DNA of 62,556 bases from Methanolobus sp. (GTDB taxonomy: Archaea; Halobacteriota; Methanosarcinia; Methanosarcinales; Methanosarcinaceae). The notes under the pieces are model-generated. The model was not told where the DNA came from. It saw nothing but the letters and a program-made list of their open reading frames with translations, and did no database searches. A program made the translations under genes and the position numbers. Positions 7,399 through 62,556 of this stretch are shown piece after piece; the first letter of the stretch is position 1; the number at the start of each line of letters is the position of its first letter. Where the stretch lies: the NCBI GenBank assembly GCA_029762595.1, contig JARVGJ010000004.1, positions 72,205-134,760 on the forward strand. Direction: 5' to 3'.

Positions 7399-7559
7399 GG
7401 CTCTGTAGAAATCCTTTCTTTATTAATAGACCAGAGATGAAAAATATCTGCGTGCATCAGCGTTACCTGCTAAACGGAGGTTTAGCAGGCACTCAACTCT
7501 GTAAGAGGTGAGTGTATCTGCGGTTCACAAACAATTCATAATAGGTTTTCTACAGAGCC
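7399..7559. mobile_element. MITE copy 1 (161 bp)
   Basis: The termini are inverted: GGCTCTGTAGAAATCC at the left, and GGTTTTCTACAGAGCC at the right, whose complement is GGCTCTGTAGAAAACC. The flanks CAATCTTC and CAATCTCC look like an 8-bp target duplication with one change. Inside is a perfect hairpin CCTGCTAAAC-GGAG-GTTTAGCAGG. The interior is closely similar to the copy at 40843-41069 but lacks about 66 bp of its left arm. No open reading frame is present, so it must depend on a transposase elsewhere. An 8-bp duplication and a GGCTCTGT end would suit an IS6-like parent, which is inference. Confidence 0.85.
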
Positions 7560-7785
7560 CAATCTCCCATTTATGTTATCAATGAGAAGATTATGTATTG
7601 CGGTTTTGTCTTTGTAGTCTGTTACATTGCTCTTAATGTCTGCTATGGGCTTTAATGTTTCTTTGTTCTCATCTGTATATCCGCTACATTTCACAGAGAG
7701 CTGATTACATGATGGATTTTACAAAGATAATTCAATGCTCGCACATTGCGTAATATAATAATACATAAATGCCATATTCATCTCA

Positions 7786-8202: not shown

Positions 8203-9077
8203 TACAGGAACCAATGCCCAATGATAACACGGACATCGAGATAGAGCCGCTCTTTGATGAACCAGCCCTTGTAGTCAGCAGTGAGACAAAAGCGCTTGTT
8301 ATCGCCGATATACACCTGGGGATCGAGTGGGACCTCTACAGGAGCGGTTTCTCTATACCAAGCCGTATGAAACGTGGCCTTGAGCGCATCCTTGGCTATA
8401 TAGGAAAAGTATCCCCTGAAAGGGTGATATTGCTAGGGGATGTCAAGCATAATGTGCCCCAGATCTCCTGGCAGGAACGTGATGAGATACCTTATTTCCT
8501 TTCAGCTATCTGTGAGCATGCAGCAGTGGACATATTCCCAGGCAACCATGACGGAGGTATCGAACTACTGATCCCTGCAGACAAAGATATAACAGTTCAT
8601 CCCGCGCGTGGTTCGATTATAGAGGACGTGGCTTATTTTCACGGACATACCTGGCCGGACCCTGGTCTGCTCAAAGCCCACTATATAGTAACCGCTCACA
8701 ATCATCCCACTATAAGGTTAACCGACTCGCTGGGATATGCCACAGTGGAACAAAGCTGGATAAGGACACATCTGGACCAGCAGGTACTGCAAAAGCATTT
8801 TGCAGGCTTTGAACTCGTAAAGGAGAATGGCAGCTGGAACGACCCGGAAGTTATAATAGTGCCTTCTTTCAATGAGCTCTGTGGCGGTGTTGCCTTCAAT
8901 GAATCCCTGCATGATGACCTTCTTGGTCCGCTGTTCTCCTCAAAGGGTGTTGACATCGACAATGCAGAAGCCTATCTCCTGGACGGTACTAAACTGGGAA
9001 AGCTGAAGAATATAAGAAAAATGGAAGAGAGCCGGGTACGACCTTCAAGAAAAAAACGTAAGGTGACAAAACAATGA
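8199..9077 (+). CDS. calcineurin-like metallophosphoesterase
   Basis: 292 residues. Metal-binding motifs appear in order: DIHLG (near residue 38), GDVKH (near 84), GNHDG (near 114), HGHTWP (near 148) and AHNHP (near 166). These are the signature blocks of the archaeal phosphoesterase group often annotated as ICC-like and frequently encoded beside a large DEAD/DEAH helicase. The tail is rich in Arg and Lys ([15 protein letters not shown]), suggesting nucleic-acid contact. Start and stop overlap the neighbouring genes by four bases on each side. The likely role is a phosphodiesterase acting with the Lhr helicase; the substrate is unknown. Confidence 0.85.
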   Translation: MIQEPMPNDNTDIEIEPLFDEPALVVSSETKALVIADIHLGIEWDLYRSGFSIPSRMKRGLERILGYIGKVSPERVILLGDVKHNVPQISWQERDEIPYFLSAICEHAAVDIFPGNHDGGIELLIPADKDITVHPARGSIIEDVAYFHGHTWPDPGLLKAHYIVTAHNHPTIRLTDSLGYATVEQSWIRTHLDQQVLQKHFAGFELVKENGSWNDPEVIIVPSFNELCGGVAFNESLHDDLLGPLFSSKGVDIDNAEAYLLDGTKLGKLKNIRKMEESRVRPSRKKRKVTKQ

Positions 9078-45791: not shown

Positions 45792-46236
45792 ATTTGATTA
45801 TTCATAAATCTATTTATATTTAATTGTAAGCGCCTTTTTTGATTTAAATTATTTTTAACATTTTATTTTTACAATAGTATTACCATTCATTTAAAAACAT
45901 AAACATAATTGTATACACATGTATATCAGTAATAATTTATTTCGATAAATATATTGATGTTATTATACACAATCATTAGACTCATTGCAAATGAAACACA
46001 CTCCCATATATATTTTTTTCTACATTGTTAGTCCGAAAGGGTTTAATAGTATAGTATTATTTGCATGTTTTAGCATATACAATAACAAACATTAATAATA
46101 AAGCATTATTAAGTTAGTGTTGAATTCATAAACTGCAATATAAAAAGAATGTATGATTGCATATTATCAATTTACGTTAGTGTTCATAGTGCATATAAAA
46201 ACTTAAAAGTATGATAATATAACCAAGGTGATATAA
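45792..46236 (+). promoter_or_regulatory. AT-rich intergenic region and promoter of the surface CobN locus
   Basis: About 440 bases of very AT-rich sequence with no gene. A TATA-like CATATAAAAAC near 46191-46201 lies about 40 bases before the DUF2162 start, and AAGGTGAT just before the ATG is its ribosome binding site. Several short AT palindromes occur but no repeated motif stands out. Confidence 0.4.
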
Positions 46237-46911
46237 ATGGATTACATCTATGCAGCTTCCACAGGCATATTAATAGCCATTTTCATATTCGGTTTAAAGA
46301 CTGGAGTAGGATGTGGCTTTTCAACTGTCAAAAAGAGAGATGTCCTAATACTTGCAGGCGCTTATTTCCTGATATCTGTTATTCTTGGAAGTCTGGTGGA
46401 AATGGTGGACCAGTCATACCTTGAAGGGATAGCAAACCTTGGCATGACACTTCACGTTCTGATAGCACTGATCCTGATAGGTGCAGGCATATACACGCAA
46501 AAGAAATGGAACTGCGGCTGTGACGTTTCAAAGAAGACATTTCTTGTTATCTCAGTTCCCTGCCCCGTTTGCCTGACAGCCCTTTTCGTATCATGCATGG
46601 TGCTTGCATCAACCCTGGAGATCAGTGGGTGGAAAGTCGGAATAATCGTTGGTCTTGTATTCTTCACTTCTGTGATATCATCAACATGGATCTTCAGGAA
46701 AATGAAAAAGACACCAGAGGACCTTGGAACGGCAATGATGTTTTTAGGTATCTTCTATCTGCTGGGAGCAATGCTGGTTCCCGCATACATCGAGGCAAAG
46801 AGACTCAATCTGGCGCTCAGTAGCGGAGGAGAATTAGAGATAGTTCCACTGCTAATATTTTCTTTATTCATAATTGGAGGCTATGCCCTCAATAATATAA
46901 GAGGTCAATAA
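46237..46911 (+). CDS. DUF2162 family membrane protein, putative transporter
   Basis: 224 residues with about six or seven hydrophobic segments and a cysteine-rich loop: CGCDVSKKTFLVISVPCPVC, then a further Cys in the next helix (FVSCMVLAS). The family is predicted to be a transporter and occurs in methanogens. The Cys pattern suggests metal or thiol chemistry at the membrane. It is the first gene of a run (DUF2162, ExbB-like, DUF2149, CobN-like, CobN-like) with 2-3-base or overlapping junctions at its start. The substrate is unknown; a metal ion or tetrapyrrole would suit the neighbours. Confidence 0.82.
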   Translation: MDYIYAASTGILIAIFIFGLKTGVGCGFSTVKKRDVLILAGAYFLISVILGSLVEMVDQSYLEGIANLGMTLHVLIALILIGAGIYTQKKWNCGCDVSKKTFLVISVPCPVCLTALFVSCMVLASTLEISGWKVGIIVGLVFFTSVISSTWIFRKMKKTPEDLGTAMMFLGIFYLLGAMLVPAYIEAKRLNLALSSGGELEIVPLLIFSLFIIGGYALNNIRGQ

Positions 46912-46913
46912 AA

Positions 46914-47537
46914 ATGGATGCAACTTCTTCTTTGTTTGGTATATTATACACATTTTCAGCTTCACTGCTGTATCCGGTTGTGATTACTCTCATACTACTG
47001 GTGATATTCTCCCTGATGCTGATAGGAGAGTTCCTGTCCGAATATGCAAAAAGGCACCGTGACATACAGAACCTTGAACAGTGCTGTAACCGGGTGAGGG
47101 ATCATGTCAGTTCCCATGAATACGAGAAAGCTGCCGTTTCACTGCGCAACGTAAAACAGAACTTCATGGTCACAAGCTTTGCCCTCTCTGCCGCAGCACA
47201 TCTTGAAAAGAACATGATCCCTGCCATTGAGTGGCTCTCACAGGAATATGAGATAAGGATGGCAAAAAGGCTGGAACAGACCAGGATAGTCGCAACGATC
47301 TCCCCGATGCTGGGTCTTATGGGAACACTCATTCCCCTGGGGCCTGCGTTAATTGGCCTGGCACAGGGGGACATCGTGCAGCTTGCAAATAACCTGATGA
47401 TAGCCTTTGCTACAACAGTTATAGGTCTGTTTGCAGGAAGTATTGCATATGTGCTGACCCAGGTCAGAAAGAGATGGTACTGGCAGGATATGGCTGACAT
47501 TGACTATATCCTGGACACCCTGGAGGTAGGGGAGTGA
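46914..47537 (+). CDS. MotA/TolQ/ExbB-family proton channel
   Basis: 207 residues. Topology matches ExbB: one N-terminal helix (about 12-37), a long cytoplasmic helical region (RHRDIQNLEQCCNRVRDHV...LEQTRIVATI), then two helices with the family signature ISPMLGLMGTLIPLGPAL and AFATTVIGLFAGSIAYVL. ExbB-type channels form pentamers around an ExbD dimer and turn proton or sodium flow into mechanical work on envelope proteins. It starts two bases after the DUF2162 stop and overlaps the next gene (GTGA). Confidence 0.92.
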   Translation: MDATSSLFGILYTFSASLLYPVVITLILLVIFSLMLIGEFLSEYAKRHRDIQNLEQCCNRVRDHVSSHEYEKAAVSLRNVKQNFMVTSFALSAAAHLEKNMIPAIEWLSQEYEIRMAKRLEQTRIVATISPMLGLMGTLIPLGPALIGLAQGDIVQLANNLMIAFATTVIGLFAGSIAYVLTQVRKRWYWQDMADIDYILDTLEVGE

Positions 47538-47896
47538 AATCCAGAAGATATCGAAGGACAGGACTCATAAACAATGAGGATGAACAGAACCCGCTTACAG
47601 GGGTTGCCAATCTTTTTGACATCGCCATGGTATTCTCAGTTGCGCTGCTGGTGGCACTGGTGATGTCCTACCAGCTCCCTGAGCTGCTCAGTCCCACAGA
47701 AGATATCACTATTGTGAAAAATCCGGGACAGCAGGACATGAAGATAATCATCAAGGAACAGGGAAAACCCATCGAGGTCCTTAACATGACCGATCAGATA
47801 GGAGGCGGACAGGGAGAGGCCCTGGGTACGGCTTACAAGCTGGCTGATGGAAGGGTTGTTTATGTGCCGGAGGAGGGAAACAGTAGTTCCGGTTAA
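47534..47896 (+). CDS. DUF2149 protein, ExbD/TolR-like
   Basis: 120 residues, GTG start overlapping the ExbB-like TGA. A short basic N-terminus (KSRRYRRTG) precedes one membrane helix with an acidic residue near its start (NPLTGVANLFDIAMVFSVAL, Asp29). A C-terminal extracytoplasmic domain with beta-rich character follows (ITIVKNPGQQDMKIIIKEQG). This is the plan of ExbD/TolR/MotB, where the single helix Asp carries the proton. DUF2149 is not usually described as ExbD, so the functional equivalence is my inference from topology and gene position. Confidence 0.8.
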   Translation: MKSRRYRRTGLINNEDEQNPLTGVANLFDIAMVFSVALLVALVMSYQLPELLSPTEDITIVKNPGQQDMKIIIKEQGKPIEVLNMTDQIGGGQGEALGTAYKLADGRVVYVPEEGNSSSG

Positions 47897-47992
47897 CTTT
47901 TTTTTGAATTACTTGACAAGTTTTCTTGCTTTAAGTCAAGCAGGGTTTACAAAAGAGGTTGGTGAATAGGAACATAAAAAGAAGGAGTTCGA

Positions 47993-48054
47993 GCATTCCG
48001 GTATCGCCTGCAAGCAATGAAACCGGAATGCCCGGCACGTCATCGAGGGATAAC
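47993..48054 (+). promoter_or_regulatory. leader hairpin and conserved start-site motif, first CobN gene
   Basis: GCATTCCGGT (47993-48002) pairs perfectly with ACCGGAATGC (48022-48031) around a 19-base loop. It is followed by CACGTCATCGAGGGATAAC directly before the ATG. The same arrangement precedes the second CobN gene. An upstream CTTGAC/GTCAAG inverted repeat (about 47914-47940) lies in the gap after the DUF2149 gene. Confidence 0.6.
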
Positions 48055-51000
48055 ATGCAAGAAAGAAGAATATTGACATTGCTCATAAGTGTATTGTTGT
48101 TACTATCACTAACAACAAGCGTATCGGCAGGAGAAAATAATTACTATCTGGTTGCAAACACCACCAGTGGTCCTGATGGATTGTTTGTTTTCGAGGACAT
48201 ACCTGACGGAGATTATACACTCATAGCAGTTAACTGGTCATCTCAGAAAATGGTATGGTACACCGGATTAAAAAACTTCACTCTAAAAGGCACAGATCTT
48301 GCAGACCAGAACATAAAGGTCAACAGCACTGCAGGCATAGATGATAAATTTATCTTCGGATTGCTCAACAGGTCATCTGTATCCGGAATGACCTATGTGA
48401 TGAAAACCGACTATCCAAGAGAAAGCACAATAGTACTTCTCGACCAGCAGACAAAGGAGCTGATAGCACATACAAGCTCCGATGCAACCGGAAACTATCT
48501 ATTCAGTGATATCCCCGATGGTGACTACAGCATTGTGGCGGTCAATTGCTCTACCGACAAAGAGCTATGGTACAGGGGAATTACCAATGTCACACTTAAA
48601 GGTGAGGACCTAACTGAACAGAACATTAAAGTGAGCAGTTCCACAGACATCGATGAGAACTTCATACTGGGATTGCTCAACAGGTCATCTGTATCCGGAA
48701 TGACCTATGTGATGAAAACCGACTATCCAAGAGAAAGCACAATAGTACTTCTCGACCAGCAGACAAAGGAGCTGATAGCACATACAAGCTCCGATGCAAC
48801 CGGAAACTATCTATTCAGTGATATCCCCGATGGTGACTACAGCATTGTGGCGGTCAATTGCTCTACCGACAAAGAGCTATGGTACAGGGGAATTACCAAT
48901 GTCACACTTAAAGGTGAGGACCTAACTGAACAGAACATTAAAGTGAGCAGTTCCACAGACATCGATGAGAACTTCATACTGGGATTGCTCAACAGGTCAT
49001 CTGTATCCGGAATGACCTATGTGATGAAAACTGACTATCCAAGGGAAAGCACAGTGGTCTTGCTCAAGGATAAAAAAATAGGGGACTTTATAGAGCTACC
49101 CCCGGTCCCTGATGACAGCGAAGATGACAATGGTTCAACTGATCCTCAGGAGCCACCCTCAAGTGGAACCGGCGATGAAACAAATGTTTCATTTGGTACG
49201 TCCTATGAATTTTTCCTCAGCACAAGTAGTGACGGACTTGGAGATTTCCTTTTTGAAAATATACCCAACGGAGAGTACAGGATACTGGCAGTGAACTGGA
49301 GTACGGCAATGGGTGGGATGTGGCTGACAAATGTCACTGATGTTACTGTTGTGAACGGAATGGCGGTTGAGAACATGTCACTTACCATGAGAAGCAATGC
49401 AGACATTGACCATGATGCAATCCGTACTTTGATGAACGAGACTATTATTGCAGGCAAGACAGTAGGCAAAAAAAGTGACATCAAGATCAGTGATATCGTA
49501 CTGAAAAACCAGTATGGGGAGTTTGTTGCCAGCACAACTGCAAATAATGACGGGGAATTCATGTTCACTGGAATCAGGAACGGGCAATATACAATATCAG
49601 CAGTGAACTGGAGCACGGCAATGGGCGGGATGTGGCTGACAAATGTAACCGAGGTCACGGTTGTGAACGGACTGCCGGTTGAGAACATGTCACTTACCAT
49701 GAGAAGCAATGCAGAGATTGATCATGATGCTATCCGTACTTTGATGAACGAGACTTTTATTGCAGGCAAAACAGTGGGCAAAAAAAGTGACAATAAGGTC
49801 AGTGATATCGTACTGAAAAACCAGTATGGGGAGTTCGTTTCCAGCACAACCGCAAATAATGACGGGGAATTCATGTTCGCTGGCATCAGGAACGGACAAT
49901 ACACAGTATCAGCAGTGAACTGGAGCACGGCAATGGGCGGTATGTGGCTGACAAATGTAACCGAGGTCACGGTTGTGAACGGACTGCCGGTTGAGAACAT
50001 GTCACTTACCATGAGAAGCAATGCGGACATTGACCATGATGCCATATTTGCAATGCTTCAAAGGACAGAGATATCAGGCGAGACCCTTGGAAAGAAAGGA
50101 GACAGCAAGGTCAGTGATATCGTACTGATGAAAAAAAGGCTTATACCGACATCTATGTCGAATTCACCCCATCTGAATATCTCCTTTGTGACTGGTTATT
50201 CTTCCTATGAGAATGAACTGGCTTCCGTTGCTGAAAGAATCAACGCGGATACTGACCTGAACATAACTTTCAATTATTATGTCACAACAAAACTGCCTGA
50301 AAACATAGATCTCAGTCAGGAAGACATAATCTACATTGTAATGGTGACCCAGAGTGCAGCCATACTTGAAAATACGATACAGGATGCGATAGATAACGGA
50401 GCAATTGTGGTTGGCTCGAACACGTACCTGCCGGAAAGCGATTATGATCTGCCGGATGGATTTGCAGACCTTACAGAATTTAAGAAATATCTCTCTAATT
50501 ACTGGTCAGGAGGAGCGACAGATGATGCAAACTTTGATAATCTCATTTTCTACCTTGCACAAACCTTCTATGACCACTATGATCTTGCAGTAGAAGAGCC
50601 CTCTGGCCTTGAAAGTGCAATTTACCACCCTTCAATGGTCACGACAGCTACCGAGTGCTTTACAGGTGATGCGCAGGAGTATTTTGAATGGTATGCTGCA
50701 AAGACAGAAGGCCATGTGTTCGATGAGAATGCACCAACTGTGGGCATCACATTCTATAAATCATACTATCCGGATGATATGGACCCCATAGACAAGCTCA
50801 TAGCAGGTTTTGAGGAGAAAGGGGTCAATGTGATTGCATGTTATGGGAATGCTGATAATTATCTTGATGGGTACTTTAATTACAGCACTCATACAAAAGT
50901 CGATGCCGTTGTTTCCTTCCACTATCGTGGGAATTATTTTGACATAGAGGGACTTGGTGTTCCGGTAATGAATGCCATCCTCAATGGATACATGAACACG

Positions 51001-54000
51001 AGCCAGTGGATAGAAACAAGCACCCCTCTGCCTGTTACAAACATGCTGAGGATATACGGGCCTGAAACGGAGGGACTTATAGATCCCATCATGATCGGAG
51101 CTAAGGAAACGGTCCGGATGGACAACAACACTGTGGAGAAATACATAGCCCACCAAGGCCAGGTAGAATGGCTTGTTGACCGCACCATGGCCCAGGCAAA
51201 CCTTGGCATCAAGGATGAAGCCAGCAAGAAGGTTGCTGTGATCTACTACAACCACGGCGGCGGCAAGGATAACATTGGAGCATCATACCTTGAGGTTGCC
51301 CCGAGTATCGTGAATCTTCTGGAGGGAATGGCCGATGCAGGTTATGATGTGGACGGCAGCCTCATACCCAATAAGACAGAACTCGTGGACCTCATGGTTT
51401 ACCAGGGGAGGAACGTAGGCACATGGGCACCTGGAGAACTTGATGCTCTTGTTAGGACAGGAAAAATTGTGCTGCTGCCCGAAAGTACCTACCTGGCGTG
51501 GTTTAATGAACTTCCTCAACAAAGGAAAAACGAGGTCATTGACATGTGGGGAGAAGCACCTGGCAAGATCATGGTCCATACCGAGGACAGTGGCGACAGG
51601 TTCATCGTCATCCCTCAGATCAGCCTTAGCGACAATGTTATACTTGCTCCTCAGCCATCACGTGGCTGGTTTGAAAACTACGAAACACTATACCACGACA
51701 CCGAACTGCCACCGAACCACCAGTACATCGCGTTCTATCTGTGGATGCAGCACGAATTCGATGCCGATGTAATGGTGAACATGGGAAGGCACGGGACCGT
51801 TGAATGGTTACCGGGCAAGGATTTCTGCCTTCTCAGTGACGAATGGCCTGCACTTATGGTTGGTGATATACCCGTCATCTATCCCTATGTAATGGACGGT
51901 ATGGGTGAAGGCATGCAGGCAAAGCGCAGGGGCAATGCGGTAGTTATCGACCACCTGATACCACCTGTGATATCTGCCGGTCTTTACGGCAATTACAGTA
52001 CCCTCAGCAGTGAGATAACATCCTACCAGACCTCTCTTGCAGAGGATGAGAACCTGAAACAGGCTCATCTGCAGGACATAATCGACCTGTCCGTTGAGCT
52101 TGGGCTTGATGAGCATGTCAACATGAGCCTGGCTGACAGCAACGAGACAGTTGATGAATTCCTTGATGAGCTCAACGATTTACTCTATGAACTAAGGAGC
52201 CTGTCAATGCCATACGGACTGCACATACTGGGAGAGGCGCCCCAAGACCAGGCACTTGTGGGAATGGTCAATTCCATGCTTGGCAGCGGGTTTGCAGAAC
52301 AGGTTGCAGCATATAACAATTCGGATTCCGCACATTACGACCTGCTGTCAAAGGTACTTCTGGAAGAAGAGGACATAACTGATGCGCAGGTACAGATACT
52401 TGGTACCACTTCTACAGATATCGAAATATATCTGAATACTGCCATGGATCATGCACAAATGCTCTCAGAGGCCGGAAATGAGATAGAGCAGGTCCTGAAA
52501 GCCATGAACGGAGAATACATACGACCAAACCTTGGCGGTGACCCGGTAATGCGTCCGGACACTCTTCCTTCTGGCAGCAATTTCTATGCTTTCGATGAGC
52601 AGCTCATCCCTACAAAGCAGGCATGGGAGCAGGGTAAGGCCCTTGTTGACCAATGGCTTACAGAGTACGTGGCAACTAATGGAGAATATCCCACAAGGGC
52701 AGGATACATACTCTGGGCAGGCGAGTCCACACGCCATGAAGGTATAATGGAATCACAGCTCCTCTACATGATGGGTATAGAGCCTGTATGGAACTCTGCT
52801 AACGGCAAGGTGGAGAATGTGAAGATCATCGATTCCTCCGAGCTTGGAAGACCACGTATTGACGTCATTGTGCAGATATCCGGCCTGTACAGGGACACTT
52901 TCCCGATGAAAGTGCAGCTTATCGACAAGGCTGTAAGGCTTGCTTATGAACAGGAAGAGACCGACCTGTATGACAACTATGTGGCACAGAACACAGATGC
53001 ACTGCAGGCAGTTCTGAATGAGACAATAGAGGACGATGAGCTTTCACGTGACATCGCACTGTTCAGAATATTCGGTCCGGCCGACGGGAACTATGGAACA
53101 GGCATGGCAAATGCTGCATCTGCCAGTGACACGTGGGATAATAATACAGAACTTGCAGAGTTCTACATCAGAAGGATGAGCTACGTCTACGGTCAGAACA
53201 TCTGGGGACAGACTATCGCAGAATATGTCAGGCAACAGACCGGCAGGGTAGTGGATATCGATAACACGGTTGTCTTTGAGAATAACCTGAACGACACCCA
53301 TGCTATATTCCACAGCAGAAGTTCCAACACCTACGGTTCGCTTGACATTGATGATTTCTACCAGTACATGGGAGGACTGTACAATGCCATCAAATACGCC
53401 TCCGGCACCGCACCTGAGACTTATGTGGTGAACCTGCAGGATCTCAGTGACCTTCAGATCCAGACGCTTCAGACCTATCTTGCTAACGAACTATATTCAA
53501 GGTATTTCAACCCCTTATGGATAAGCGGCATGCAACAGCATGGTTTTGAAGGCGCCAGGGAGATGGAGAGTTTCATTGAGCATCTCTGGGGATGGGAGGC
53601 TCTAAACCCTGATCTCATAAGCGATGATGTCTGGAACAAGGTGTATGAGAACTACTTTGCCAATGCCGAACTTAGCGGCTGGCTCAAGGAGAATAACCCC
53701 TACGCTTACCAGGCAATGACAGCCAGGATGACAGAAACCGTAAGGAAGGGTAACTGGGATGCTTCTGATACTGCGCTGAGAAGTCTTGTTGCCGAGCAGA
53801 TAAAATCCGTAGCTGAAAGCGGAGCCACATGCTGCCACCATACATGTGGTAACATCCTCAATCAGCAGTTCGTTGATGGCATGGCACAGGCACTTGTTGA
53901 TGCAGGAGAGCTCAGTCAGGATGAACTTGACCTCTACAGGCAAATCATGAAAGCAGCTACAACTGCAACGGAAACTCCAGCTGATTCATCATCAAGCCCA

Positions 54001-54303
54001 GCAAGCTCTTCTTCCCGCTCAGGCAACACCGGAAAAGAGCTGAGCATAGTAGAGACCAGCTCAGGCAACCAGACATACATGGATGATACAGGTGCAGGAA
54101 GTGATCTTGAGCAGCAAGCATCTTTGAGATCCCCAAGCCAGGACAACTACATAGAAGGATATGAGATGACAAAAGAGAGCAATGTTCAGGAAACAACAAC
54201 CAGCGGACCGTCAATATCAGGTTCTGATATAATTGCATCTTTGTTTGTACTGGTTGGTGTGGGGGCCATATATGTGGGCTTTGTGAGGAGAAGAAAGATC
54301 TAA
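48055..54303 (+). CDS. giant secreted CobN-family protein with N-terminal repeat domains
   Basis: 2082 residues from ATG 48055 (GAGGGAT upstream). Order: signal peptide (ILTLLISVLLLLSLTTSVSA); six or seven 104-residue beta-sandwich-like repeats (to about residue 700, pattern GNYLFSDIPDGDYSIVAVN); then the CobN/BchH core with YYNHGGGKDNIGASYL, GRHGTVEWLPGK (His1246, Glu1250) and PYVMDGMGEGMQAKRRGN. A CCHHTCGN motif is at 1926-1933, followed by a Ser-rich linker and a membrane helix ending RRRKI. CobN normally inserts cobalt into a corrin with cytoplasmic ATPases CobS/CobT. Here it is exported and anchored, beside ExbB/ExbD-like genes, so surface capture or remodelling of a metal or tetrapyrrole is likelier. 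The activity is unproven. Confidence 0.88.
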   Translation: MQERRILTLLISVLLLLSLTTSVSAGENNYYLVANTTSGPDGLFVFEDIPDGDYTLIAVNWSSQKMVWYTGLKNFTLKGTDLADQNIKVNSTAGIDDKFIFGLLNRSSVSGMTYVMKTDYPRESTIVLLDQQTKELIAHTSSDATGNYLFSDIPDGDYSIVAVNCSTDKELWYRGITNVTLKGEDLTEQNIKVSSSTDIDENFILGLLNRSSVSGMTYVMKTDYPRESTIVLLDQQTKELIAHTSSDATGNYLFSDIPDGDYSIVAVNCSTDKELWYRGITNVTLKGEDLTEQNIKVSSSTDIDENFILGLLNRSSVSGMTYVMKTDYPRESTVVLLKDKKIGDFIELPPVPDDSEDDNGSTDPQEPPSSGTGDETNVSFGTSYEFFLSTSSDGLGDFLFENIPNGEYRILAVNWSTAMGGMWLTNVTDVTVVNGMAVENMSLTMRSNADIDHDAIRTLMNETIIAGKTVGKKSDIKISDIVLKNQYGEFVASTTANNDGEFMFTGIRNGQYTISAVNWSTAMGGMWLTNVTEVTVVNGLPVENMSLTMRSNAEIDHDAIRTLMNETFIAGKTVGKKSDNKVSDIVLKNQYGEFVSSTTANNDGEFMFAGIRNGQYTVSAVNWSTAMGGMWLTNVTEVTVVNGLPVENMSLTMRSNADIDHDAIFAMLQRTEISGETLGKKGDSKVSDIVLMKKRLIPTSMSNSPHLNISFVTGYSSYENELASVAERINADTDLNITFNYYVTTKLPENIDLSQEDIIYIVMVTQSAAILENTIQDAIDNGAIVVGSNTYLPESDYDLPDGFADLTEFKKYLSNYWSGGATDDANFDNLIFYLAQTFYDHYDLAVEEPSGLESAIYHPSMVTTATECFTGDAQEYFEWYAAKTEGHVFDENAPTVGITFYKSYYPDDMDPIDKLIAGFEEKGVNVIACYGNADNYLDGYFNYSTHTKVDAVVSFHYRGNYFDIEGLGVPVMNAILNGYMNTSQWIETSTPLPVTNMLRIYGPETEGLIDPIMIGAKETVRMDNNTVEKYIAHQGQVEWLVDRTMAQANLGIKDEASKKVAVIYYNHGGGKDNIGASYLEVAPSIVNLLEGMADAGYDVDGSLIPNKTELVDLMVYQGRNVGTWAPGELDALVRTGKIVLLPESTYLAWFNELPQQRKNEVIDMWGEAPGKIMVHTEDSGDRFIVIPQISLSDNVILAPQPSRGWFENYETLYHDTELPPNHQYIAFYLWMQHEFDADVMVNMGRHGTVEWLPGKDFCLLSDEWPALMVGDIPVIYPYVMDGMGEGMQAKRRGNAVVIDHLIPPVISAGLYGNYSTLSSEITSYQTSLAEDENLKQAHLQDIIDLSVELGLDEHVNMSLADSNETVDEFLDELNDLLYELRSLSMPYGLHILGEAPQDQALVGMVNSMLGSGFAEQVAAYNNSDSAHYDLLSKVLLEEEDITDAQVQILGTTSTDIEIYLNTAMDHAQMLSEAGNEIEQVLKAMNGEYIRPNLGGDPVMRPDTLPSGSNFYAFDEQLIPTKQAWEQGKALVDQWLTEYVATNGEYPTRAGYILWAGESTRHEGIMESQLLYMMGIEPVWNSANGKVENVKIIDSSELGRPRIDVIVQISGLYRDTFPMKVQLIDKAVRLAYEQEETDLYDNYVAQNTDALQAVLNETIEDDELSRDIALFRIFGPADGNYGTGMANAASASDTWDNNTELAEFYIRRMSYVYGQNIWGQTIAEYVRQQTGRVVDIDNTVVFENNLNDTHAIFHSRSSNTYGSLDIDDFYQYMGGLYNAIKYASGTAPETYVVNLQDLSDLQIQTLQTYLANELYSRYFNPLWISGMQQHGFEGAREMESFIEHLWGWEALNPDLISDDVWNKVYENYFANAELSGWLKENNPYAYQAMTARMTETVRKGNWDASDTALRSLVAEQIKSVAESGATCCHHTCGNILNQQFVDGMAQALVDAGELSQDELDLYRQIMKAATTATETPADSSSSPASSSSRSGNTGKELSIVETSSGNQTYMDDTGAGSDLEQQASLRSPSQDNYIEGYEMTKESNVQETTTSGPSISGSDIIASLFVLVGVGAIYVGFVRRRKI
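48361..50047 (+). repeat. 312-bp tandem repeats inside the first CobN gene
   Basis: Units of 312 bp (104 codons) repeat through the N-terminal region. The unit at 48361-48672 and the one at 48673-48984 appear identical base for base, and a third begins at 48985 with about 60 matching bases before diverging. A second, related set (anchored on VNWSTAMGGMWLTNVT at about 49291, 49603 and 49915) has the same 312-bp period with a few per cent divergence. Each unit resembles a carboxypeptidase-regulatory-like beta sandwich. Confidence 0.93.
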
Positions 54304-54318
54304 GAGAAGTATATTTTT

Positions 54319-54345
54319 GGCGCATTTTCTTTTTTGTGCCTTTTT
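54319..54345 (+). terminator. hairpin terminator after the first CobN gene
   Basis: GGCGCA and TGTGCC arms around a T-rich loop are followed by TTTTT. The sequence closely resembles the terminator after the second CobN gene, as if duplicated with it. Confidence 0.55.
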
Positions 54346-54388
54346 AAGATCAATAAGAAATCAAATTGAGGATATCTTAAGAGACAAG

Positions 54389-54453
54389 CCGGACACTCCC
54401 CCAGGCCGCCAGGCAAAACAGGGAGTATCCGGAACACGTTATCGGGGGATAAC
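54389..54453 (+). promoter_or_regulatory. leader hairpin and conserved start-site motif, second CobN gene
   Basis: CCGGACACTCCC (54389-54400) pairs with GGGAGTATCCGG (54421-54432), 11 of 12 positions. The loop can form a small GCC/GGC hairpin. CACGTTATCGGGGGATAAC follows directly before the ATG, nearly the same as in front of the first CobN gene. The stems differ in sequence while the position relative to the start codon is conserved (21 versus 23 bases). Confidence 0.6.
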
Positions 54454-57400
54454 ATGCAAATGAAAATAAAAACCATATTGGTATTAAGCATATTGTTGAC
54501 GGCAGTACTAACAGGTGTTGCCACAGCAGATGAAGAGAAGATAAAAATTACTTATGTTGCATACACTGCAAGTGATGCTCTGGAAATGGCCAGTCAGACC
54601 TGTGTGTATAGTGATCTCATAGAGTTCACTTACATACCTGGGTATAACACAACATCTTGGGGAGCAAGTGATGAACTGCTAGATGCAGACCAGAGTAGAT
54701 TGCTGGGAGAGCAGGATATATTATTCTGTGATATGCTTTCCTCTGGAGTATATACAGAAGTGAATGAGAGTTTCAAATCTGTTTATGATAATGGGACTTC
54801 ACTTCTAAGCATACGTTCAAGCGGTACACCTTCGTATTTCAATTATATATCTGATGGTAATTCAAATGACACTATATGCAACTATTATAATGAGATGGGA
54901 ACTATAGGAAAAGGTCTTGAAAGTGCAGAAAACCTATTGATCCATCTGGCAAAGGAATACGGTAATCATCCCGAGATAACCGACACCTGGGGAAAATCAA
55001 TTAGCAATTACAATGAATTCCTTTTCATACTTGGAACAGATGTTAATAAAGATGAACTTACAAGTGCATCTTTGAGCAGTAACATCTCATCTGAGCTCAA
55101 TACAACGATTTTCACAAAAGATGAAGCATTGACAGAGAGTTTTAATTTTTCAGATTATGCTCTCATCTTCATTGAATCAGTTGACGAAGCTACTGTAAGC
55201 AACTGGACATCCAGCATAAATGCTGCCAAAGCTACTGGTTCAAAAGTCCTAGGGTACAACCTCTCATCTAACATCACCCTACCAAATGTTGACCTGTATT
55301 CAAATGAGCATACAGACATCGAAAGATACTGGATACAGGGTGGCGAGACAAATATGAAGAACATGCTCAGGTTCATGGGGCAGAATTTCTCCGGGATGTG
55401 GGAATATGAAACTATAGATGAACCGGAGATCATCCAGACAAAGGTAAATCTGACATATATCATCAACCATGATACAAGCAATTATTACATGAACCTGATA
55501 CTTGATGAAAGAGAGGTGATCACTGACCGGTTTAACGTAAAGGTCATGACAGGCCAGGAAGCCATAAACAGTTCTGTAGATATTTCAGGCGAGGATATTA
55601 TAATACTTTACATGGTAGGAGCAAATGAGTTCCCCCTCATCAAGGATGAACTGATAGCTGCACAGAACAACGGTGCTCAGATAGGCATGTTCGGTATGCT
55701 GGCAGATTCATATGGAATTGCAACTATTGATATGCTGAACCCTCCGCATAATGCAATGACAGAATACCTCTATAAAAGCGGTTATGAGAATATGGAGTAC
55801 TGGATCAGGTGTGCAGGGGCGACACTAGAGAATACATATATAGAGTACAGTCCTGCTCTGGCGCCTTCCATTCCTGACGATGGTATATACCATCCCGATG
55901 CTTTCCCAAGGATCTTTGCAGAAAGCACCGAATACATGGAATGGTATGAAGGGAACGGATATGACCCCTCTGTACCAACAATAGGCATTATTGGCGGCAG
56001 ACTGGGAAAAACCACCCTGTCCTATAATGCAGAGGATGCCCTGATAAGGAATATTGAATCAAAAGGATACAATGTGCTCTATACAACTTACAAAGTGTGT
56101 GAGGAAGATGTAGACTATCTCACCAAAGACGGAGAAGTTATCGTTGATTCAATAATAAGCCTCAAAGGATTCTACCTCAATTATGGGAATCAGGAGACAG
56201 GTTTTGAATACCTCAAACAGTACAATGTACCGGTGATAAAGGGAATAACCGATTACTATCACACGCCTGATCAATACAATGCCAGTGTACACGGACTCAG
56301 TCCTACATCCATTCCCTATCAGGTCACACAGCCCGAAATAGACGGACTCACCGATTATATATGGATTGCCGGAAGAGTGAAACATCCGGATACTGGCGAG
56401 TATTATTACCAACCCCTTGATCCACAGGTAGACTGGATATGTGACCGTGCTATTGCATGGGCAGAGCTCTCAAAGAAAGAGAACGCTGACAAAAAGATCA
56501 GTATAATCTACTATAACCATGAAGGAGGAAAGAACAACATCGGTGCAAGCTACCTGGACATAGGTTCAAGTTTCAGTGTACTTCTGGAACAAATGCAGGC
56601 AGCAGGTTATGATGTTGGCAACGATGCAATTCCAAACAGCAGTGAGTTCATCGATCTTTTCATAACAAGCCGGAATGTCGGGACATGGGCACCCGGGGAA
56701 CTGGAGAAGGTCGTAGACTCAGGAATGGTCACTCTCCTGCCCGTACACGAATACCTTTCATGGTACAATACACTGCCTGAATCTGTGAGAGAGCATGTGG
56801 AAGCAAGATGGGGAGAGGCCCCAGGTAATGTAATGACCTATGAGGATGAAAGCGGAGAGTACTTTGTGATACCAACCATACAACTGGGTAATATCAATTT
56901 CATACCCCAGCCTACAAGAGGGGGGCTCTCTGATGAGTCAATTATATACCATGACAAGGAACTGCCGCCAACCCACCAGTACCTTGCAACCTACTTCTGG
57001 ATCAACAACGCCTATGATGCAGATGCTATGATACACTTTGGAACCCACGGGACCCAGGAGTGGCTACCAGGAAAGGAAGTAGGGTTGTGGAGATACGACT
57101 ATCCTTCCATCATGGTGGCTGAAACCCCGGTGATCTACCCCTATATCATGGACAATGTAGGAGAAGGCACACAGGCCAAACGCCGTGGAAATGCTGTCAT
57201 TATAGACCACCTGACCCCTGCAATTACGGAGGCAGGCCTTTACGGGGAACTTGCAGAGATTCATGAAAAGATCCATAATTATAAGGATGCAAAGTCAAAA
57301 AGTGAAACTGCAATGATGGGGCTTTATCGCAACCGCACGATAGAGCTGTACGATTCTATCAGCCTTGAGGATGACCTTGAGGTCACATACGCTGAACTGC

Positions 57401-59595
57401 AGGCCATGACAGACGATGAGTTTGAGTACTTCCTTGATGCAGTGCTTCACGATTACCTGCATGAGCTCCAGTCTACGCTCATGCCACTGGGACTTCATAT
57501 ATTCGGAGTTGCACCGCAAGATCACAAACTTGTCAGCATGGTCAAATCCATGCTTGGTAATAGCCTTACAGAGAATATATTCAACGTAATCCCGAAAACA
57601 GAAGGTGGTGAAGAGAATTGGGATGATGAAGAATATTGGGAAGATCAGGCCGATGCTTATGCGCTGGATCTCCTGAATTCAACAATACTGAACGGAACAA
57701 ATGTTTCTGATGCTCAGTATGACGTCCTCGGCCAGGAATATGAGAACATTACTGCAAACCTGGACACAGGGCTTGTGTATGCAGACAACCTTGTCCGGAC
57801 AACACGAGAGATAGACCAGACACTTCGTGCCCTTAATGCAGAATACATAGAACCAGGGCCTGGAAATGATCCTATCCGCAATCCTGAAGCGTTGCCTACC
57901 GGCAGGAATTTCTACAGCTTTGACCAGAGGGCTTTCCCCGATGAACAGACAGAAGCCATGGGAGCCATACTCACTGAGCAGATGCTGGAGGTCTACAAAG
58001 CAGAAAACAACGGAACTTATCCGAATAAGGTGAGTTACATATTGTGGTCTGTGGAAACAATGCGTCACAGGGGACTTATGGAAGCACAGATATATGCCCT
58101 GCTGGGTGTCAAACCGACCAGAAGTTCCGGCAGGATCACCGGTTTTACTGTGATCCCGCAGGAGGAGATGACACATCCGAGAATAGATGTGCTTCTTATA
58201 CCATCCGGACTCTATCGTGACACATTCCCATATCAGCTTGAATTGATGGATACGGCTATCAGGCAGGTTGCGGACCTGAATGAAACAAATGAGACGAACT
58301 ATGTGAGGATGAACTCTCTAAAGATAGAGGAAGCTCTTCTTGAAAGCGGCTATAACGAAAGTGTGGCCTACTACATTTCAAGGTCAAGGATATTCAGTGA
58401 AGCACCGGGCACTTACGGCACAGGCATGTCTGAAGCAGCTGCGGCAAGCAACACATGGGAAGATGATTCAGAACTTGCTGAACTCTTCATATCAAGGATG
58501 TCAAACATCTACGGTAAGGATGCATGGGGTGTCAGTTATGAGGATGTGTTCAGGATGAACCTTGTTGATGTGGATGCAGCAATTCACAGTGATTCTTCGA
58601 ACCTGTACGGTCTTATCGACAATGATGACTACTACCAATATCTAGGAGGAATTGCACTTGCTGTAAGAACACTTACCGGGGAGAATCCAAGCATGTACGT
58701 GGCGGATTTCAAGAGTGCTACTAACCCAAAGGTGGTTGCACTTTCTGAAGCTTTCAGGAATGAGCTGCGTGCAAGGTACCTCAACCCGAGCTGGATATCC
58801 TCAATGATGGAATTCGATTATGCAGGCGCCAGGGAGATGATGAATTTTGTGGAGCATATGTGGGGCTGGGATGCCATGACACCCGACATGGTAAAGGATT
58901 CTGACTGGAACCAGATATATGATGTCTATGTGGCTGACAAGTATGACCTTGGCCTTGAGGAATATTTCAAGGAAAATCCTTACCAGCACCAATCCACATT
59001 GGCCAGGATGCTTGAGACAACAAGGAAACTGGATTCAGAAGGAAATCCATACTGGGATGCTTCTGACGAAATCATCCAGGATCTTGTCAAAAAGTATGCA
59101 GAATCTGTTGTCAACGACGGTGTCACCTGCTGCCACCATACCTGCGGCAATCCCCTGCTGGATTCATATGTACAGAATGTCATGACAACCACAGGAATTG
59201 TGGATGTAAGTACCATGAAAGAGTACCATAGGCTGATGCAGGAAGCAACACACCGGACCACCAGCACTGAAACAACGCCTGAAGAGAGTGTCAGCAGTAG
59301 CAGAAGCAGCAGCTCTACAGGCACCGACCTGCAGATAACCGAACCAGGATCAGGTTCATCCAACCGGACAATGGCGATGGATTCGGGAACAGGAATGGAC
59401 CTCAGTGCACCGGCAGAGGATGCGACACAATCAACCCCCGATAACTACATAGAAGGCTATGAGATGACAAAGGAAAGTCCCACAACTGCTGAAACCGGAA
59501 GTGGGTTCTCAGGTTCTGACATAATAGCATCTTTACTGGTAATTGCCGGTGTGGGAGCGATATATATGGGCTTTGTAAGAAGAAGGAAGTTCTAA
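54454..59595 (+). CDS. second secreted CobN-family protein
   Basis: 1713 residues from ATG 54454. Signal peptide (TILVLSILLTAVLTGVATA); an N-terminal region without the 104-residue repeats; a CobN core with YYNHEGGKNNIGASYL, FGTHGTQEWLPGK (His865, Glu869) and PYIMDNVGEGTQAKRRGN; CCHHTCGN at 1559-1566; a Ser-rich linker; and the membrane helix SGSDIIASLLVIAGVGAIY with RRRKF. It is clearly a paralogue of the preceding gene, including the DNYIEGYEMTKES block before the anchor. Two different CobN proteins could act as a pair or on different ligands. No CobS/CobT, ChlI/ChlD or corrin-synthesis gene lies nearby. Confidence 0.88.
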   Translation: MQMKIKTILVLSILLTAVLTGVATADEEKIKITYVAYTASDALEMASQTCVYSDLIEFTYIPGYNTTSWGASDELLDADQSRLLGEQDILFCDMLSSGVYTEVNESFKSVYDNGTSLLSIRSSGTPSYFNYISDGNSNDTICNYYNEMGTIGKGLESAENLLIHLAKEYGNHPEITDTWGKSISNYNEFLFILGTDVNKDELTSASLSSNISSELNTTIFTKDEALTESFNFSDYALIFIESVDEATVSNWTSSINAAKATGSKVLGYNLSSNITLPNVDLYSNEHTDIERYWIQGGETNMKNMLRFMGQNFSGMWEYETIDEPEIIQTKVNLTYIINHDTSNYYMNLILDEREVITDRFNVKVMTGQEAINSSVDISGEDIIILYMVGANEFPLIKDELIAAQNNGAQIGMFGMLADSYGIATIDMLNPPHNAMTEYLYKSGYENMEYWIRCAGATLENTYIEYSPALAPSIPDDGIYHPDAFPRIFAESTEYMEWYEGNGYDPSVPTIGIIGGRLGKTTLSYNAEDALIRNIESKGYNVLYTTYKVCEEDVDYLTKDGEVIVDSIISLKGFYLNYGNQETGFEYLKQYNVPVIKGITDYYHTPDQYNASVHGLSPTSIPYQVTQPEIDGLTDYIWIAGRVKHPDTGEYYYQPLDPQVDWICDRAIAWAELSKKENADKKISIIYYNHEGGKNNIGASYLDIGSSFSVLLEQMQAAGYDVGNDAIPNSSEFIDLFITSRNVGTWAPGELEKVVDSGMVTLLPVHEYLSWYNTLPESVREHVEARWGEAPGNVMTYEDESGEYFVIPTIQLGNINFIPQPTRGGLSDESIIYHDKELPPTHQYLATYFWINNAYDADAMIHFGTHGTQEWLPGKEVGLWRYDYPSIMVAETPVIYPYIMDNVGEGTQAKRRGNAVIIDHLTPAITEAGLYGELAEIHEKIHNYKDAKSKSETAMMGLYRNRTIELYDSISLEDDLEVTYAELQAMTDDEFEYFLDAVLHDYLHELQSTLMPLGLHIFGVAPQDHKLVSMVKSMLGNSLTENIFNVIPKTEGGEENWDDEEYWEDQADAYALDLLNSTILNGTNVSDAQYDVLGQEYENITANLDTGLVYADNLVRTTREIDQTLRALNAEYIEPGPGNDPIRNPEALPTGRNFYSFDQRAFPDEQTEAMGAILTEQMLEVYKAENNGTYPNKVSYILWSVETMRHRGLMEAQIYALLGVKPTRSSGRITGFTVIPQEEMTHPRIDVLLIPSGLYRDTFPYQLELMDTAIRQVADLNETNETNYVRMNSLKIEEALLESGYNESVAYYISRSRIFSEAPGTYGTGMSEAAAASNTWEDDSELAELFISRMSNIYGKDAWGVSYEDVFRMNLVDVDAAIHSDSSNLYGLIDNDDYYQYLGGIALAVRTLTGENPSMYVADFKSATNPKVVALSEAFRNELRARYLNPSWISSMMEFDYAGAREMMNFVEHMWGWDAMTPDMVKDSDWNQIYDVYVADKYDLGLEEYFKENPYQHQSTLARMLETTRKLDSEGNPYWDASDEIIQDLVKKYAESVVNDGVTCCHHTCGNPLLDSYVQNVMTTTGIVDVSTMKEYHRLMQEATHRTTSTETTPEESVSSSRSSSSTGTDLQITEPGSGSSNRTMAMDSGTGMDLSAPAEDATQSTPDNYIEGYEMTKESPTTAETGSGFSGSDIIASLLVIAGVGAIYMGFVRRRKF

Positions 59596-59637: not shown

Positions 59638-59801
59638 TTCCAGACAGCAACTACGGTTAGATGAGGTCATACATAAACCACCACATAGGAAATATATTAA
59701 TTTTTTAGATGAGCCCTGCATTTTATATACAAGTTTGCCTGAATATATTTACTACTTGCATAATACTATTTCCATGTCAGCATAAAACAGGGTTGGGGCG
59801 T

Positions 59802-62556
59802 ATGGATAAAAAAACCGTTGTCTTTGTCTTTATATCTGCTATTCTGATCGTACTTTCACCTTTTGTCGTTTCAGGCGCTTATGACACAAACAACCAGAAT
59901 ACGATATTCCTGAGATCCGGCAACCTGGATACCGATCTGCTGCATGTGATCAATGAATCAGACGACGCCCAGATCAAAACATCCTCAATATCCGGGATCA
60001 CAGATCATACCGACAGATATTACATAGTGCAATTTGACGGCTCTGTCCGTAAGGAATGGAAAGATGAAGTGAGTAAGACCGGAGCTGAGTTCTTTGATTA
60101 TGTCCCTGACAATGCTTTTGTGCTCAGGATGAACGAAAACGGAATAAATCTGCTGGGATCACTTGAATTTGTACACTGGACAGGGGAATACCTGCCTGAA
60201 TACAAATACACACCTGAATTTGTAAGTTCAGATGCCTTTTCTATTCAAACGGGATCAGAAGAAATCGCAGATCTTGTATTATTCCTTTTTGATCCAGACG
60301 AAAGGCCCGGGGTTGAATTACAGATCTTGTCCATGGGTGGGGAGATACTTGAAAGTTCTGATCGCATCCTAAGGATACAAATACCTGAGTACAGGGTCGG
60401 CGAAATTGCCAGGGTCAGAGGAATCAGTTGGATAGAACCATATTCGCAACCATCTGTTTCAAATGATGTGGCAGCAACTATCGTAAACATAGGACCGGTA
60501 CAGAACACGCTGGGGCTGAGAGGCAGCGGACAGATAGTTGCCGTATGTGATACCGGACTGGACACCGGTGTGGATGATAATACCATGCATGCCGATATCA
60601 GGGGAAGGATCCTGAGCATCACAGACTTTTCAGGTGATGGTGCACAGGACAGAAGCGGCCACGGAACCCATGTGGTTGGTTCTGTGTTGGGTAATGGAAC
60701 AATGTCAGATGGGCAATACACAGGCATGGCCCCTGAAGCATCACTTGTATTCCAGGCTGCTGAAAACGACGAAGGTTTCTTTAACATTCCGACAAATCTG
60801 AACAATATATTCATGCCTGCATACAATGCTGGTGCAAGGATACACAGCAATAGCTGGGGTTCCAACAATAACGGCGTATATAATCAATATTCCTATTATG
60901 TAGACGATTTCTCATGGAAGCACCCTGATATACTGATAATATTCTCTGCTGGCAATGAGGGAAAAGACCTTGACCATGACGGCGTCATAGACCCTGATTC
61001 ACTTAACACGCCTGCCACTGCAAAGAACAGTATCACTGTGGGTGCATCCGAAAACAGTAGAGGGGATACGTTCTCAAGCGGCTCATACTCTACGTGGGGC
61101 ACACGATGGCCAACCTTCTACTCCGGGAATCCCATAAAAGATGACTATATGGCTGATGACAGTGAAGGTATTGCCGCTTTCAGCAGCAGAGGACCTACAG
61201 ATGATGGACGGATCAAACCTGATATTGTTGCACCGGGTACATTCATAATCTCTGCAAGGTCAAGTCAGGCAAGCTGGTATGAATGGGGGCTACTTTCAGA
61301 GAATCCAAATTATGCCTACCTGGGAGGCACAAGCATGTCAGCACCAATTGTTGCCGGTGCCGCTGCACTGGTACGTGAATATTATACGGAGATAGAAGGT
61401 CTTGAAAACCCAAGTGCTGCATTGCTGAAAGCGACCCTTCTCAACGGTGCATATGATATGACACCCGGGCAATACGGAGAAGGTTCCAGCCAGGAAATAT
61501 CAGGCAGGCCGGACTATTCCCAGGGTTGGGGCCGTCTTGATGTAGAGAACTCGATAATGGTGCCTTATCCTCAGGTAATTGCATATTTTGATGATATATC
61601 CCTGTCTACTTCACAATCATGGAATCACAGCTATGAATATATAAAAGGAAATGAGCCATTAAGAGCAACCCTCGCATGGACCGATTATCCGGGAGCGGTC
61701 TTTTCGCCAAAAAATCTTGTCAATGATCTGGATATGACGATATCCACACCAACCGGAACATACTACGGCAACAACGGTCCTGACCGTACAAATAATGTTG
61801 AAGGAATTGAACTGAAAAATGTTGCAGAAGGAAACCACACTATCACAATTATCGGACACAATGTAATCCATGGACCGCAACCTTTTGCCCTGGTCCTGTC
61901 GTTCACATGTAACAACAAAGAGTTTCCATATCCCGGCTCCCATGTCGTAAACAGCAGCACACCGGTATCCACCGATCTTGTACATCCGCTTGGAGTGAAC
62001 CCGACTTCCATTCAAATGATGATAAATGATATACCTGTCAGTTTCAGTACATTACCCATACCCGGTGGATACAGTATATCATATAATACGCCGACTCCTT
62101 ACCCAGCCGGTGAATATAACGTATCGGTCACAGCCCTGACAGCTACCGGTCAGCAATTCTCCTATGGCTGGAAATTCAACGTCACATCCAGCTCATCCAA
62201 ATCAATAACAGCTTTCAGCTTTACAGATCCTGCAGTTGCTGGTGACATAAAGGAAGCTGCAAGGACTGTCAACGTTGAAGTGCCATACGGGACCGATGTA
62301 ACAAGCCTGACCCCAACCATTGTCCATACGGGAGCAAGCATAATTCCCGAGAATGGAGTTGCACAGAACTTCACTAACCCAGTCACTTACACGGTAACGG
62401 CAGAGGACGGGACAACTCAGAGCTACACGGTAACTGTGACATCATTACCCAACCCGGCGAAATCAATAACCGGTTTCAGCTTTACGGATCCTGCAGTTAC
62501 TGGGGACATAAACGAAGCTGCAAGGACCATAAGTATTACAGTGCCATACGGGACTG
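59802..62556 (+). CDS. secreted subtilisin-family (S8) serine protease, C-terminus beyond the window
   Basis: At least 918 residues from ATG 59802; the frame runs off the right edge. Order: signal peptide (VVFVFISAILIVLSPFVVSG); a propeptide-like region (to about 220); the S8 catalytic domain with Asp250 (AVCDTGLD), His287 (SGHGTHVVG) and Ser511 (GGTSMSAPIV); a P-domain-like jelly roll (about 590-710); then at least two 87-residue repeats (SITAFSFTDPAV at about residue 800 and SITGFSFTDPAV at about 887) of a DUF5018-like, Ig-fold type. TATA-like ATTTTATATAC lies about 75 bases upstream. It is likely an extracellular or surface protease. It has its own promoter, so any link to the CobN genes is positional only. 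Confidence 0.92.
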   Translation, partial: MDKKTVVFVFISAILIVLSPFVVSGAYDTNNQNTIFLRSGNLDTDLLHVINESDDAQIKTSSISGITDHTDRYYIVQFDGSVRKEWKDEVSKTGAEFFDYVPDNAFVLRMNENGINLLGSLEFVHWTGEYLPEYKYTPEFVSSDAFSIQTGSEEIADLVLFLFDPDERPGVELQILSMGGEILESSDRILRIQIPEYRVGEIARVRGISWIEPYSQPSVSNDVAATIVNIGPVQNTLGLRGSGQIVAVCDTGLDTGVDDNTMHADIRGRILSITDFSGDGAQDRSGHGTHVVGSVLGNGTMSDGQYTGMAPEASLVFQAAENDEGFFNIPTNLNNIFMPAYNAGARIHSNSWGSNNNGVYNQYSYYVDDFSWKHPDILIIFSAGNEGKDLDHDGVIDPDSLNTPATAKNSITVGASENSRGDTFSSGSYSTWGTRWPTFYSGNPIKDDYMADDSEGIAAFSSRGPTDDGRIKPDIVAPGTFIISARSSQASWYEWGLLSENPNYAYLGGTSMSAPIVAGAAALVREYYTEIEGLENPSAALLKATLLNGAYDMTPGQYGEGSSQEISGRPDYSQGWGRLDVENSIMVPYPQVIAYFDDISLSTSQSWNHSYEYIKGNEPLRATLAWTDYPGAVFSPKNLVNDLDMTISTPTGTYYGNNGPDRTNNVEGIELKNVAEGNHTITIIGHNVIHGPQPFALVLSFTCNNKEFPYPGSHVVNSSTPVSTDLVHPLGVNPTSIQMMINDIPVSFSTLPIPGGYSISYNTPTPYPAGEYNVSVTALTATGQQFSYGWKFNVTSSSSKSITAFSFTDPAVAGDIKEAARTVNVEVPYGTDVTSLTPTIVHTGASIIPENGVAQNFTNPVTYTVTAEDGTTQSYTVTVTSLPNPAKSITGFSFTDPAVTGDINEAARTISITVPYGT

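Follow-up and report, generated by a model that had tools for sequence, protein, structure and literature searches.

In a 62,556-nucleotide stretch of a Methanolobus sp. genome (the window, located on contig C44 of our analysis), five genes on the plus strand (46237–59595) encode, in order, a DUF2162 protein, an ExbB-like channel, a DUF2149 protein, and two giant CobN-family proteins, denoted CobN-A and CobN-B. Judged by homology, this run corresponds in archaea to the S, U, and V components of the Bacteroidota Hmu/BtuS system. As to function, we favor, on balance and with moderate confidence, a reading in which a proton-driven ExbB–DUF2149 motor drives an anchored CobN, which would in turn release metal from exogenous tetrapyrroles. 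An earlier sequence-only reading of the window had picked out the run, all genes of which are indeed present on one strand, and had regarded it as a possible new system; the parts are, however, known from the Bacteroidota hmu operon and homologous to hmuS, hmuU, and hmuV. We consider that interpretation partly supported: its general outline holds, but it makes too much of how new the parts are, and the function it proposes is unproven. The U, V, and S parts were already known, and what is new is a juxtamembrane Gly-x-x-Met box shared by the anchored proteins.

The bacterial hmuSTUV genes encode a CobN protein, a hypothetical protein, a MotA/TolQ/ExbB protein, and a DUF2149 protein, and are strongly induced under iron starvation (PMC10434189); HmuS has been shown experimentally to be a membrane-bound heme de-chelatase for which His538 is essential (PMC12583661). 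Using 22 hmu loci as a comparison set, we find that profiles of the archaeal proteins match HmuU with E-values down to 3e-61, HmuV with 1e-46, and intact HmuS with <1e-239. The window ExbB (46914–47537; PF01618, E = 8.9e-12) is 39% identical to Bacteroidota HmuU (E = 2e-39), the window DUF2149 (47534–47896; PF09919, E = 2.4e-35) is 46% identical to HmuV (E = 1e-31), and the best Protein Data Bank (PDB) match of CobN-B is HmuS (9d26, E = 2.7e-133). These comparisons establish, at the level of sequence, that ExbB and DUF2149 are homologues of HmuU and HmuV and that the CobNs are relatives of HmuS. An equivalence of DUF2162 with HmuT was considered and rejected, with an HHalign probability of 5% and no hidden Markov model match in either direction. 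No HmuY hemophore or HmuR TonB-dependent receptor is found among the genes of the run, a statement that covers the run only, as no genome-wide receptor search was made. In a midpoint-rooted tree of 80 CobN-type cores, the anchored, motor-adjacent archaeal CobNs group with HmuS and exported proteobacterial relatives (support 0.95), with cytosolic archaeal and bacterial CobNs outside this group.

CobN-A and CobN-B (both PF02514, >1000 bits) are the only PF02514 proteins encoded in the whole 2.43-Mb genome. The listed open reading frame of CobN-A (47959–54303) begins at a TTG, but the true start is most probably the ATG at 48055, which agrees with orthologue starts and opens a putative signal peptide (48055–48129, MQERRILTLLISVLLLLSLTTSVSA). 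CobN-B (54454–59595) likewise begins with a putative signal peptide (54454–54528, MQMKIKTILVLSILLTAVLTGVATA). Each protein has a hydrophobic N-terminus, and each ends in a single hydrophobic helix (54229–54282 and 59521–59574, respectively) followed by RRRK; both are predicted to be exported and membrane-anchored, in agreement with the sequence-only reading. An N-terminal stalk of transthyretin/carboxypeptidase-regulatory-like repeats (PF13620/PF17210/PF23193) occupies 48118–50088 of CobN-A and contains 312-bp tandem repeats at 48358–49053 (99% alike) and 49288–50042 (93% alike), which suggests recent expansion. The CobN/Mg-chelatase cores span 50497–53772 in CobN-A (PF02514, residues 847–1938) and 55762–59070 in CobN-B (residues 437–1539).

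The cores retain part of the HmuS active site. CobN-B His865, in an HFGTHG motif, corresponds to HmuS His538, and this position (HFG(T/A)HG) is kept in 58 of 63 archaeal sequences; the Glu577 equivalent is kept in 62 of the 63. CobN-A carries the variant motif NMGRHG, which preserves the catalytic-position His, and also keeps the Glu577 equivalent. The HmuS motif LSLDHxxEFMGG (harboring His1209 and Glu1212) is absent and a DNDDxxQYxGG-type motif is found instead (LIDNDDYYQYLGG and SLDIDDFYQYMGG in the window CobNs), with Asp at the HmuS-1209 position in 52/63 sequences. The HmuS heme ligands Met79 and His254 are also absent, replaced by V at 79 and by a gap or G at 254 in an N-terminal alignment that is weak. 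Given the absence of this motif and of the heme ligands, the archaeal CobNs are not members of the HmuS family by its published definition, although they may work like HmuS.

The gene set is kept over several archaeal families, as the sequence-only reading had proposed to check. In a survey of 295 genomes of the phylum, in which DUF2162 was counted over a cut-off and the counts are not phylogenetically independent, DUF2149 is found in 93, DUF2162 in 81, and CobN in 177 genomes. DUF2149 is present in all 81 genomes with DUF2162, and CobN in 89 of the 93 genomes with DUF2149. Among 80 stretches examined around DUF2149, ExbB adjoins it in 79/84 cases, with three of the remainder at contig ends; the 4-base overlap of exbB and DUF2149 seen in the window is the commonest spacing among the compared loci (50 pairs). 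With DUF2162 upstream, 46 of 61 cases have a CobN on the same strand no more than 5 kb away, and six of the others lie at contig ends. The CobNs of such runs are mostly 1300 to 2280 residues long and anchored. An alternative order, CobN-DUF2162-ExbB-DUF2149, occurs in loci L028, L031, L061, and L091. DUF2149 is common in this archaeal phylum and rare in Bacteroidota (3/296 genomes), and a Pseudoalteromonas megaplasmid (L151, 4710–9510) encodes ExbB, DUF2149, and an exported CobN in the archaeal order. Two further loci, L071 and L072, pair ExbB and DUF2149 with an anchored binding protein carrying an AGHPM box and with CobNs of the cytosolic type, which lack signal peptides and fall outside the exported CobN/HmuS group of the tree; these loci may represent a receptor-type variant of the system.

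The ExbB protein keeps the motifs of an ExbB/TolQ-type channel, as had been claimed: the window sequence reads PMLGLMGTLIP...IAFATTVIGL, and the GLMGTLIP and FxTTVxG segments are invariant in the ExbB alignment. DUF2149 consists of a short cytosolic N-terminus, one transmembrane helix, and an extracytoplasmic domain of ~65 residues. The ExbD-like character attributed to it holds for the single helix, whose Asp29 does not vary among 57 sequences from archaea and Bacteroidota; N26, F28, A31, T59, G106, and P112 of the protein are invariant as well. An ExbD-like fold could not be demonstrated: the structure model is of low confidence (predicted local distance difference test [pLDDT] score of 62) and finds no PDB match, and the domain is short and predicted, at low confidence, to be all-beta. 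ExbD/TolR (PF02472) itself was found in none of 26 genomes. DUF2162 (46237–46911; PF09930, E = 3.4e-67) is a predicted transporter of seven to eight transmembrane helices with conserved residues K21, C26, D96, and a P-C-P-x-C motif (108–112); its AlphaFold model (pLDDT 83) gave no PDB match below an E-value of 0.5.

The prospective clients of the motor share a short juxtamembrane motif. In 54 of 59 archaeal CobNs, G[YHFKVR]x[MF] (GYEM in both CobN-A, 54157–54168, and CobN-B, 59455–59466) directly precedes the C-terminal anchor, where shuffled sequences lead one to expect 2.0 and gave at most 7. The remaining five have GMVM, GLVM, GQVM, or GAVM, all of the form G-x-x-M, or GEVI, so that 58 of the 59 have a box of the Gly-x-x-Met type; in most HmuS proteins this position reads KGVVMKKEE or KGMVMKKEE. 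Large anchored neighbors of ExbB–DUF2149 other than CobN also carry the box (SGFPF, TGHPF, AGHPM, EGKRM, and GYPF), but fall into only about four families. Among these neighbors, the box occurs in 13 of 28 single-anchor open reading frames, four of which are ExbB itself and most others PGF-CTERM-type or S-layer proteins; it is missing from all 18 controls drawn from the same loci. Chance was considered as an explanation and rejected on the shuffles, with the caveats that the box had already been noticed in these loci before it was tested on them and that the CobN sequences are related rather than independent. We hypothesize that the box links the clients to the motor, a proposal with support that falls short of proof.

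ExbB–DUF2149 pairs also occur apart from CobN. A second pair in the same genome (L023, C56:28000–47999, at 3521–9983) lacks DUF2162 and CobN and lies beside an anchored S-layer protein (PF07752), a CARDB protein, and DUF1538-type proteins; pairs without DUF2162 and CobN that adjoin an anchored PF07752 protein are likewise found in L029, L032, L035, and L037. In other families (L069, L076, L084, L089, L093, L096, L098, and L101), the pair lies beside giant NosD/CARDB/beta-propeller surface proteins, most of which carry a Gly-x-x-Met/Phe box, and near BtuF-like binding proteins with PGF-CTERM anchors.

In the mechanism we propose, ExbB multimers and DUF2149 would together act in the cytoplasmic membrane as a motor driven by protons, and the extracytoplasmic part of DUF2149 would engage the anchored CobN via the Gly-x-x-Met box and the anchor. 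Movement of the motor would then supply the work that AAA+ partners (CobST, ChlID) give to the cytosolic relatives. The CobN body would bind tetrapyrroles arriving through the S-layer and free the metal, or hand the ligand on, at the membrane, where DUF2162 and/or a metal transporter would take up the product. Tetrapyrroles of cobalt (corrinoid-type) or of nickel would be the likeliest substrates, heme a possible one, and the two or three CobN paralogues found per operon may provide several specificities. In published Hmu models, by contrast, HmuU and HmuV either power HmuR, the receptor in the outer membrane, or transport heme through the inner membrane (PMC12583661, PMC13227078).

Archaea of this kind have no outer membrane. 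Because motor and CobN are kept together without an outer membrane, ExbD, or an adjoining receptor, the motor most likely acts on CobN itself, and the sequence data are explained most economically if a proton-driven motor works on an exported CobN. To this extent the use of proton-motive force suggested by the sequence-only reading stands; the substrate and the direction of the chemistry are unproven, and metal stripping from exogenous tetrapyrroles is a function we infer. Several points weigh against the proposed mechanism. The ExbD fold of DUF2149 is not demonstrable from the model. Met79, His254, His1209, and Glu1212, which are specific to HmuS, are replaced in the archaeal CobNs, and same-site heme de-chelation therefore cannot be assumed. 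The link to cobalt described below comes from another family and not from the genus of the window, and, to our knowledge, it is not an established reaction for an enzyme to take cobalt out of a corrin ring. Finally, recombinant HmuS works in vitro without HmuUV, and the motor may therefore not be needed for catalysis itself (PMC12583661).

The metal is best indicated in one archaeal family (f7), where the cluster adjoins genes for CbiM, CbiN, and CbiQ, CbiT/CbiL/CbiF-type genes, and the gene of a DUF71 protein whose E-x-G-E-Y-H signature closely resembles the one reported for the B12 subgroup. CbiN is described as specific for cobalt uptake (PMC2667541), and the gene content of these clusters favors cobalt for f7. 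Near CobN/Cbi clusters, L094 (3846–4775) and L099 (15197–16117) encode a ribbon-helix-helix protein that weakly resembles AIRS and might act as a metal or corrinoid regulator. The genome of the window holds two CbiX-type chelatase matches, so that cytosolic insertion of cobalt or nickel need not depend on CobN.

Three other accounts of the run must be weighed against metal release by a motor-driven CobN. An anchored CobN might merely capture corrinoids or other tetrapyrroles, with the motor releasing them in a TonB-like manner to a permease (DUF2162 or BtuCD) and the metal staying in place. Cobalt is hard to remove from corrins, which speaks for this account, as do the BtuF-like binding proteins and the B12-type DUF71 protein beside ExbB–DUF2149 in one archaeal family and the exported CobN of Marinobacter (L153, 1–12199), which is encoded in an operon with a TonB receptor, a cobalamin-binding protein, an ABC transporter, CobO, and cobyric acid synthase. 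We nevertheless think it unlikely, if the strongest of the three: HmuS, the nearest relative to have been characterized, works as a de-chelatase (PMC12583661), nearly all of the archaeal proteins retain His and Glu at the catalytic positions, and the genes that adjoin the cluster include those of the cobalt-ion transporter CbiM, CbiN, and CbiQ besides B12 transporters.

The archaeal CobNs might instead be heme de-chelatases that feed FeoB with iron, as in Bacteroides. This is consistent with their homology to HmuS/U/V and with the finding that CobN-like BtuS proteins of Methanosarcina barkeri change with the iron and sulfur source (PMC10846266), but the HmuS heme ligands and LSLDHxxEFMGG are missing, the run has no HmuY- or HmuR-type genes, and the genomic context, where informative, is one of cobalt and B12. 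Moreover, another methanogen produces a CobN1 solely when nickel is limiting (PMC12350162), although this CobN1 is not known to be of the exported type; altogether we judge iron supply from heme to be quite improbable. Least probable, and in our view hardly to be expected, is that ExbB–DUF2149 is a separate envelope motor for S-layer or surface-protein maintenance with CobN as one of several unrelated passengers. The second pair of this genome beside PF07752 and DUF1538 proteins and the NosD/CARDB pairings of other archaea are what such a motor would predict, but CobN neighbors the pair in those 46 of 61 cases with DUF2162 (six others being at contig ends), and the shared Gly-x-x-Met box connects clients and motor.

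A broader proposal, which we offer tentatively and with less confidence than metal release itself, is that ExbB–DUF2149 is a general proton-driven energizer of the single-membrane archaeal surface that, without an outer membrane, TonB, or ExbD, pulls directly on anchored proteins (CobN, NosD/CARDB, and binding proteins) via the shared box; Bacteroidota HmuU and HmuV would belong to the same class and drive HmuS rather than HmuR. The HmuS work left open the role of archaeal HmuS/CobN homologues without complete hmu operons and the role of HmuT/U/V (PMC12583661, PMC13227078). The archaeal operon, which retains U, V, and S side by side although there is neither outer membrane nor receptor, provides a testable correction to the Hmu model: it ties an unexplained archaeal operon to a characterized bacterial de-chelatase and predicts that HmuU/HmuV-type motors drive the chelatase. 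If true, a proton-driven motor would take the place of AAA+ ATPases on the outer side of the membrane and power metal–tetrapyrrole chemistry in a new way.

Upstream of the run lie ribosomal and housekeeping genes, with a promoter-like stretch at 46032–46048 (TCCGAAAGGGTTTAATA), whose first part several genomes of the genus share ahead of DUF2162. Beyond this stretch, no regulatory palindrome shared within the genus was found; Methanosarcina-type loci have a GTTAYC-N6-GRTAAC palindrome in its place. Downstream (59709–62555, running past the window end) is a gene for a secreted subtilase (PF00082) with DUF5018-like repeats, and similar genes come after the CobN run in several congeneric genomes (e.g., L033 and L039). 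A scan of the window against Rfam gave no match.

Compared with known systems, the run most resembles Hmu, in that an exported, anchored CobN-type protein with the catalytic-position His538 and a Gly-x-x-Met-like box ahead of the anchor is encoded alongside a DUF2149 protein of the HmuV subfamily and an ExbB of the HmuU subfamily. It differs in its usual gene order (T-U-V-S, with DUF2162 in the T place, versus S-T-U-V), in having DUF2162 instead of HmuT, and in its cobalt/B12 neighbors in one family. The name BtuS has been used for two CobN-like proteins of Bacteroides fragilis, BtuS1 and BtuS2 (a term that PMC6460266 credits to Rodionov et al. 2003), and for the M. barkeri proteins, for which the entire operon is said to be lacking (PMC10846266); in the Methanosarcinaceae-type loci analyzed here, in contrast, ExbB and DUF2149 adjoin CobN. 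An archaeal operon with its own motor is absent from the papers we found, and a full-text library, with most subscription journals outside its scope, returned no report linking the archaeal operon to the Hmu de-chelatase. The Ton and Tol systems (ExbBD-TonB and TolQR-TolA) share the ExbB-family channel with conserved Thr helices and a single-helix partner with an invariant Asp, but the archaea have no outer membrane to energize and the probable client of their motor is an anchored enzyme. Cytosolic CobN and ChlH (7c6o and 4zhj) share PF02514 and the xxGxHG motif, and Mycobacterium tuberculosis CobN has Asp at the HmuS-1209 position as do the archaeal proteins. The latter, in contrast, are predicted to be exported and anchored, form a tree group apart, and have no CobS/CobT or ChlI/ChlD adjoining; for an AAA+ partner of the ChlI type, the genome gives only weak matches to Mg_chelatase, none of them beside the operon.

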